DNA from: Candidatus Desantisbacteria bacterium CG1_02_38_46
GTDB lineage: Bacteria > Desantisbacteria > UBA1551 > UBA1559
Length of the DNA: 16,862 nt
Direction: 5' to 3'
Assembly: GCA_001871015.1 (NCBI GenBank)
Contig: MNUO01000130.1
Span: 1 to 16,862 of the forward strand
Positions 14-1,211 of this stretch are shown here, piece by piece. Position 1 is the stretch's first letter. Each line of letters begins with the position of its first letter. Under the pieces are notes generated by a model. That model was not told the DNA's origin. It saw only the letters and a list, made by a program, of their open reading frames with translations, and searched no databases. The position numbers and the translations under genes were made by a program.

Positions 14-46
14 GAGCCGAATCTGGGAAATCTGGACGTTCGGTTC
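14..46 (+). ncRNA. Group II intron domain V
   Basis: GAGCCGAA (14-21) pairs with TTCGGTTC (39-46), with one G-U pair. This brings the AGC catalytic triad (15-17) into the lower stem. CG at 37-38 is the two-nucleotide bulge, and a short upper stem (22-36) carries a GAAA-type loop at 27-30. The AGC triad, CG bulge and GNRA-like loop in a hairpin of about 34 nt are diagnostic for domain V, the metal-binding active site of the ribozyme. The upper stem is less regular than usual because it contains G-U pairs or a mismatch. Confidence 0.85.
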
Positions 47-49
47 TGT

Positions 50-93
50 GAGGGGCATTAAATACCAAATGGAGGTATAAAAGATGTCTACTC
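50..93 (+). ncRNA. Group II intron domain VI with bulged branch-point A
   Basis: GAG (50-52) pairs with CTC (91-93), A90 is bulged, and GGGCAT (53-58) pairs with ATGTCT (84-89) using two G-U pairs. After an internal loop, ATACC (62-66) pairs with GGTAT (74-78) around a 7-nt loop (67-73). A90 is the predicted branch-point nucleotide for lariat formation. The same stretch contains GGAGG (71-75) and the ATG (84-86) that serve as ribosome binding site and start codon of the following reading frame. RNA folding and translation start would therefore compete. Confidence 0.78.
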
Positions 94-1211
94 GACAAAG
101 AAGAATAATTGTGAAAGCAGGTTTTCATGATGTGAAGCTTTGTCCGGTGAGTTATGATATTGGAGAAGAATTTAAAAATATTAAATTGATTGATGCGGAG
201 AAAAATGAAGATATTCTCTGTCAATATGAGAAGGGCAAACTTTTCTGGGTTGTTGAGAATCTGGAAAAGGGAAAGGAAAAAGAGTATTTGATTTCTGATG
301 AAGAAGGTGAAATTTTTCCTGAGGTAGAATTAGAGAAAAAAGAAAGTACTGTTGATGTAAATGTAGAAAAAACTCTTTTTACTACTTACCATTTTGGAAA
401 AAATTTTGCAAGGCCCTTCTTAAATCCGGTTATTGGACCTACTGGTAAAACTGTTGTAAGAGAATTATTCGATAAACCAGAACCACCTGACCACGACCAT
501 ATTCACCACCGCGGAATTCTGGTTACCCATGGCGATGTGAATGGAGTAGATGACTGGAGCGAAGAAGAAGGTCATGGTTTTGTCAGGCACAACTCTTTTA
601 GAGAACTTTGTTCAGGGCAAGTCTACGGTAAAATTGTTGTTGAGAATTCATGGGTATCAAAGGAAGAAAAAAAGGTTCTTACTGAAATAAGGGAGATGAA
701 ATTCTATAACCTTTCACAGGTTCGAATTATTGACTTTGAGATAACCTTTCAAACCACAGAAGGAAAAGTAACATTTGGTGATACAAAAGAAGGTGGAATT
801 ATATCTGTGCGGGTGCCAACATCAATAAGGGGTGACAGAGAGGGAAAAATTGAAAATTGTTATGGCGGAACAGGTGAATGGGAGACCTGGGGAAAGAGAG
901 CGCACTGGTGTGATTATTCAGGAATGCTTGATTCTGAAATAGTGGGTTTAGCTATTTTTGATAATCCAGATAATTTAAGGTATCCTGGATACTGGCATGT
1001 CCGGGATTATGGTTTGATGACCTCTAATCCTTTTGCTCTTTCTTATTACTATAATGATAAGAACAGAGATGGTTCACATACTGTGGAAGCTAATAAAGAA
1101 CTCAAGTTCTGCTATAGAATTTTTGTTCATCGCAAAGATGCAAAAGGAGCAAAAGTGTCCGATGCTTTCAACAACTACATCAGTCCACCACAGATAGAGG
1201 AGAAAAAATGA
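84..1211 (+). CDS. DUF6807 (PmoA-like) family protein
   Basis: A 375-residue protein of the DUF6807 family, often labelled 'PmoA' in databases although it is not the membrane methane monooxygenase subunit. The hallmark is the His-rich segment DHDHIHHRG at residues 136-144, followed by a GDVNGVDDW-type motif (150-158). There is no signal peptide or membrane segment, so it is predicted cytosolic. The family's biochemical role is unsettled; its members commonly sit beside sugar oxidoreductases and isomerases, as here. The called ATG at 84 has a GGAGG site at 71-75, but both lie inside group II intron domain VI, so residues 1-4 are intron-derived. The ancestral start was probably just upstream of RRIIVKAG (residues 6-13) on the 5' exon. 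An in-frame GTG at 111 is an alternative start. The gene ends just before a hairpin repeat and the esterase gene. Confidence 0.82.
   Translation: MSTRQRRIIVKAGFHDVKLCPVSYDIGEEFKNIKLIDAEKNEDILCQYEKGKLFWVVENLEKGKEKEYLISDEEGEIFPEVELEKKESTVDVNVEKTLFTTYHFGKNFARPFLNPVIGPTGKTVVRELFDKPEPPDHDHIHHRGILVTHGDVNGVDDWSEEEGHGFVRHNSFRELCSGQVYGKIVVENSWVSKEEKKVLTEIREMKFYNLSQVRIIDFEITFQTTEGKVTFGDTKEGGIISVRVPTSIRGDREGKIENCYGGTGEWETWGKRAHWCDYSGMLDSEIVGLAIFDNPDNLRYPGYWHVRDYGLMTSNPFALSYYYNDKNRDGSHTVEANKELKFCYRIFVHRKDAKGAKVSDAFNNYISPPQIEEKK

Follow-up and report, generated by a model that had tools for sequence, protein, structure and literature searches.

A group II intron lineage inserted one nucleotide behind start codons, with a candidate replacement translation start in domain VI

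The common view is that housekeeping genes are shunned by bacterial group II introns, as tolerance there needs good splicing. The groEL intron of Azotobacter reportedly sits in the termination codon. In the intron C.te.I1 of Clostridium tetani, start codons of downstream open reading frames (ORFs) lie inside motifs formed by domains V and VI (D5/6), and the unspliced RNA, which predominates (75–95%), yields a protein of its own (PMC3919590). The insertion specificities reviewed for group II introns comprise homing sites, terminators and attC sites (PMC4424553). Here we describe an intron end from Candidatus Desantisbacteria bacterium CG1_02_38_46 (genome of 1.73 Mb in 133 contigs), located on a contig of 16,862 nt that was analysed whole and that we call the window (MNUO01000130.1; G000:C98). 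Bases 1–96 of the window are the 3′ end of a group II intron, and domain VI (D6) of this intron holds a Shine–Dalgarno (SD) sequence and an ATG in frame with the DUF6807 gene that follows. Very probably the element belongs to a multicopy group II intron lineage that encodes a reverse transcriptase (RT), inserts one nucleotide behind start codons and carries a replacement ribosome-binding site and in-phase AUG in D6.

Like the Azotobacter intron, introns of this kind occupy a harmless codon of essential genes; they differ in that the codon there is reportedly the termination codon. C.te.I1 is the closest precedent, sharing with them the start codon of a downstream ORF in D6. It differs in being one locus without an intron-encoded protein (IEP), with four tandem D5/6 motifs, a complete S-layer ORF as 5′ exon and a 5′ splice site shifted by 8 nt, whereas the present introns form a mobile RT-bearing family with insertion at start codons, an anti-start exon-binding site 1 (EBS1) and a D6 start in the native frame. 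Group IIC introns targeting terminators or attC sites are similar in having evolved specificity for a common harmless motif (PMC4424553), but the target here is the translation start, EBS1 is UUCAUU, and the separated signal appears to be re-supplied. In the open literature searched, we found no report of group II introns that target start codons, subscription papers lying outside the scope of the search and forming the main risk to novelty.

The intron end was matched by the Rfam model RF00029 (Intron_gpII, group II D5–D6) in a cmscan of the window, at 12–96 on the + strand with 47.4 bits (gathering score 40, E = 8.9e-7). This 85-nt stretch folds into D5, a joiner and D6 at −28.8 kcal/mol (z = −4.0), a value equalled in none of 200 shuffles; D6 folded alone reaches −13.3 kcal/mol (z = −3.5). 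All features lie on the + strand: the catalytic hairpin D5 at 13–47, with its AGC triad at 15–17; D6 at 49–94, built of a basal helix (49–59/83–94) with the bulged branch-point adenosine A90 and a distal hairpin (62–66/74–78); and the 3′ splice site at 96/97, where the intron ends in GAC, in keeping with the AY consensus, and the exon starts with AA. An initial annotation, made from the letters of the window, had proposed D5, joiner, D6, bulged A90 and the GAC end at 96, and had suggested a covariance search with group II models; the fold and the RF00029 match, above its gathering score, bear this out with coordinates right to within 1–2 bases. Its placement of GGAGG (71–75) and ATG (84–86) inside D6 was exact and can be refined. 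In the folded domain the AUG, 13 nt upstream of the 3′ splice site, is wholly paired with C56-A57-U58 (columns 5–7/24–26 of the aligned D6), and the SD, which aligns with that of the other introns of the start-codon lineage, has GGA in the apical loop and its last two bases, GG 74–75, paired with C65-C66. This partner is CC in the window and UU, UC or CU in other introns. Across 18 distinct D6 types, 98.1% of cells are paired, the covariation score is 0.307 compared with 0.175 after shuffling, and 14 cells are changed on both sides compared with 3.3 in shuffles (0 of 500); a slid register scores at most 0.131. The set was reduced by hand to paired positions, and because the register was placed by eye, the covariation counts as support and not as independent evidence.

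Another four contigs in the genome share the intron 3′ end, with 95–100% identity up to the border and divergence beyond. As the copies diverge directly after 96/97, the intron/exon border is fixed there. In 5/5 copies the D6 ATG is in frame, each time into a different gene: the DUF6807 gene of the window and genes for an OmpA-domain protein, an MbnB/TglH/ChrH-like protein, an M28 peptidase and an M50 peptidase, of which the OmpA-domain protein and the M28 peptidase have a signal-like N terminus. Upstream of D5, the four non-window copies hold the C terminus of a group II RT/maturase, whole or partial; in this genome only this C-terminal maturase stretch and, at the other end, the first 218–239 nt of the intron are assembled. 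That contigs end in the element is to be expected, since an identical repeat breaks short-read assembly. Near-identical copies at five places would imply recent mobility. Intron 5′ ends were sought by pattern and then by DNA similarity with no start codon required, and exactly three were found in the genome, all of the GUGYG type (GTGTGCCG) and each behind a native SD and ATGA (for example, CAAAAGGAGGGAAATAAAATGA|GTGTGCCGAG); the intron therefore sits one nucleotide after start codons. The window's own 5′ end lies outside the assembly. A match to ATGAGTGTGCCG on contig C32 was rejected as the native start of another gene. The same genome also has a D6-only remnant of the window's intron (C76:13308–13364, L006), in which D5 is gone and GGAGGTATAAAAAATGTTTACTGGACAAAA heads a 158-aa ORF with a signal-like N terminus, and a second, distant group II intron (C76:34700–36606, L014) with an intact RT ORF of 427 aa and a D6 lacking SD and ATG.

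The intron-borne start is in register with the native one. The native ATG plus one nucleotide amounts to 4 nt and the D6 ATG to the splice site to 13 nt. Both lengths are 1 modulo 3, and spliced and unspliced RNA would therefore read the host gene in the same frame. In the window, the 3′ exon (97–1211) is the DUF6807 gene (Pfam PF14100) from the second base of native codon 2, and its product is predicted to begin MKRRIIVKAG... after splicing and MSTRQRRIIVKAG... without it. The closest intron-less DUF6807 homologue found (51% identity) has AAGGAGAAAAAG-ATG and starts MAEKRIIVKSG, without MSTRQ-like residues. Further, NCBIfam full-length models for GroES, IspH, SerA, RidA, Adk, rubrerythrin and PilT start (model position 1–3) at residue 5 or 6 of the proteins headed by MSTR, which places the junction at native codon 2; for GroES, IspH, SerA and Adk, residue 5 falls on model residue 1–2. 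Introns assembled with both flanks, in L040, L042, L074 and L086 and also in L301 of an independent lineage, keep the frame both ways; in L074 the RT is broken, and the gene entered at its start codon is transposase-like (MIKYHVGVDVSKDKH...). The initial annotation had offered a choice: either the gene lost its own 5′ end to the intron, which now supplies the start, or the true start belongs to the 5′ exon and returns by splicing, the residues from 84–96 being then an annotation artefact. Each start is supported by itself and their exclusivity is not, as 3/3 5′ ends have an intact native SD and ATG and 5/5 copies an in-frame D6 ATG. Displacement is inexact, since the native signals stand upstream at all three 5′ ends, and an artefact finds no support in a frame kept in 5/5 copies here and 37/55 elsewhere. 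The intron assignment itself, which it had tied to intron sequence upstream and to intron-less homologues without MSTRQ, agrees with the RT C terminus and the 5′ ends in the genome and with the MAEKRIIVKSG start.

The position of the insertion is matched by the guide sequence of the intron. At about +195, EBS1 reads UUCAUU, the complement of AAUGA, in 8/8 start-codon introns with sequence there. In sister introns the same column reads TTTATG (UUUAUG) facing a 5′ exon CATAAA and TCGTTC facing a 5′ exon GAATGA; EBS1 varies with the intron-binding site (IBS1) as expected of guide pairing. From its complementarity, UUCAUU would be an anti-start-codon guide that fits AATGA sites in general, beyond start codons. 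The spacing of the SD at 5′ exons ranges from 5 to 12 nt, which makes a further pairing of fixed position with the SD improbable, and a pairing of EBS2 with the SD was dropped because such spacing is unfit for a fixed IBS2. The 5′ exons read SD-ATGN, and insertion after an intrinsic terminator, the hallmark of group IIC, was not found among them.

Several lines of evidence extend these observations to other genomes. First, a scan of 84,980 species genomes for the D5...ATG...D6 pattern returned 102 stretches from many phyla, 80 of which were listed and examined for frame. In 55 of these D6 contains an SD, and for 37 of the 55 the frame of the D6 ATG stays open for 60 aa or more, compared with 2 and 3 for the other frames; the 25 with the same ATG and no SD have 3, 2 and 2 open in the three frames. 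A plasmid collection gave a short D5 match only, and viral contigs gave no match to the intron.

Second, in Nitrospira sp. Bin_21_1, a metagenome-assembled genome (MAG), the intron is represented by 33 complete 3′ ends and by 27 5′ ends. Without exception, the 27 5′ exons stop one nucleotide past a start codon (26 ATG+1, one GTG+1) and have an SD, which is found at 17% of 809 ATG[AG] sites in the background. An in-frame stop lies within 61 codons upstream in 26 of the 27, as expected of starts; at the remaining one (L175) the upstream frame is open for 498 codons, and this insertion may be internal to a gene. At the other end, 23 of the 29 3′ ends read are in frame for more than 90 aa. The invaded genes include those for phosphoglycerate kinase (pgk), histidyl-tRNA synthetase (hisS), groES, IspH, glutamine synthetase (glnA), serA, RidA and rubrerythrin. 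The same genome, at G059 C279:5938, C182:25, C181:4383 and other places, has a second group II intron family whose D5 is about 84% identical to that of the first.

Third, relatives of the window's intron are assembled in full. The Rfam model group-II-D1D4-6 (RF02005), a family defined by domain I–IV structure only, with start-codon insertion outside its definition, matches domains I–IV of L040, L042, L086 and L124 at 90–151 bits. RT ORFs are present in L042, L086 and L124, the last resembling solved group II RTs at 1e-49. In a tree of IEPs, introns of the main type that carry an SD fall into a single group (99/98). An independent start-codon case from an Rfam sample of 145 genomes, G107, groups with L065 (100/99); none of about 26 other D6s in that sample has an SD and ATG in frame.

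Fourth, retargeted and dead copies provide natural controls. In the Actinomycetota JACQXZ (G070; L237, L241, L242, L245–L250), introns with the same D6 type have their 5′ ends at GRCGT in short repeats in 9/9 cases; the SD has decayed to TGAGG, and 0/9 3′ ends are in frame. Their insertion sites are repeat arrays of the GTGAGACGTAAGGCGT type, a clean case of retargeting. Conversely, remnants that have lost D5 and RT keep SD, ATG and frame: L103, on a complete Gemmatimonadota chromosome, L059, L038, L093 and L006. In three of them the D6 hairpin is weaker, at −7.8 (L103), −6.0 (L059) and −2.8 kcal/mol (L006) versus −13.3 kcal/mol in the window. The decay in JACQXZ and the retention in remnants both support putative selection on the start signals.

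These controls bear on the strongest alternative, that splicing is efficient, the native 5′-exon start alone is used, and D6 has its ATG as a by-product of structure (the CAU:AUG basal pair), in frame by chance. The native start is intact upstream, and the AUG can indeed be structural, since SD-less sister lineages have the CAU...AUG pair without a reading frame; on this last ground we ruled out the D6 ATG by itself as a start signal. In the start-codon lineage, however, the SD is conserved at a suitable distance, whereas the retargeted JACQXZ copies have a decayed one, and remnants incapable of splicing, with neither D5 nor RT, retain an in-frame SD and ATG as the fold decays. We therefore regard this explanation as unlikely.

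A device for alternative or trans-splicing, in which many 3′ exons led by D5/D6 share one 5′ exon (SD-ATG-N) in the manner of a spliced leader, would recall C.te.I1, which does so in cis. It would suit the many exchangeable 3′ halves with identical D5/D6 and phase, and 5′ exons that all end in ATGN, so that any fits any 3′ exon. Yet copies assembled end to end hold 5′ end, RT and D6 in one piece, 5′ ends occur at many loci, each with its own SD, and the contig ends are a product of an identical repeat in short-read assembly. Tandem D5/6 motifs behind one 5′ exon, the trait of C.te.I1, were not seen; where assembled, the introns are separate and in one piece. Because one-piece introns with separate 5′ sites exist, we set this reading aside as highly improbable. 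We give next to no credence to a single domestication, in which a hitch-hiking insertion between promoter and gene handed DUF6807 a chance start in D6: the window by itself shows no more than that, but recurrence refutes it, the arrangement being shared, at different genes, by 5/5 copies here and by dozens from other phyla.

Returning to the replacement start in D6, we consider a wider proposal fairly likely: a widespread lineage with an anti-start guide, its own ribosome-binding site and start in matching phase, and a two-state D6 serving splicing or translation, for which essential genes are safe harbours. EBS1 UUCAUU would pair with the (A)AUGA of the target and direct insertion one nucleotide past the start codon. 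Spliced mRNA would then give the native protein, and unspliced mRNA a protein with its first residues swapped for MSTR(Q/H). A folded, splicing-competent D6 would hide the start, and an unfolded or decaying one expose it; a ribosome on the D6 start would prevent splicing, just as a docked D6 would block initiation. As folding of D6 pairs the AUG and half of the SD, splicing and translation from D6 should exclude each other. This putative folding switch is strengthened by the paired AUG and the covariation, and we infer splicing, ribosome use of the D6 start and their mutual exclusion. Start-codon insertion would be nearly neutral, even in essential genes, and copies would persist after the death of the intron.

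Some points weigh against this account. About a third of the SD-bearing copies are out of frame; some of these resemble insertions at start+2, and others are unexplained. Insertion at start codons may have arisen more than once, as a further clade (G107) shows it too. The data come from MAG assemblies, and that of the window's own copy covers its 3′ end, with intron body, RT and 5′ flank lying outside. Splicing and use of the D6 start in vivo are predictions from sequence, and a D6 folded at −13 kcal/mol with a paired AUG would be a poor initiation site.

Introns that occupy the start codons of core genes such as groES, pgk and hisS, at up to about 33 copies per genome and apparently repairing the signal they interrupt, would represent an insertion specificity for the translation start and a way of living in coding genes independent of splicing. 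One hairpin contested by ribosome and ribozyme makes for a testable competition. N termini of the MSTRQ/MSTRH type are a source of doubtful annotations.

Two further groups of copies differ in their insertion sites. The start+2 type is seen in 5′ exons ending ...ATGGA| (L063/L233) and ...TTGGA| (L236), while L075 and L087/L204 are open in the +2 frame; at L063/L233 and L236 the frame would be kept by splicing and lost from the D6 start. In the Spirochaetia VFJS01, the 3′ exons of L060, L068, L094 and L105 all begin with AATACTTTCTG, which would fit homing into a repeated element; the D6s of these copies contain GGGGGTAGCGACATG, mostly without a long frame.
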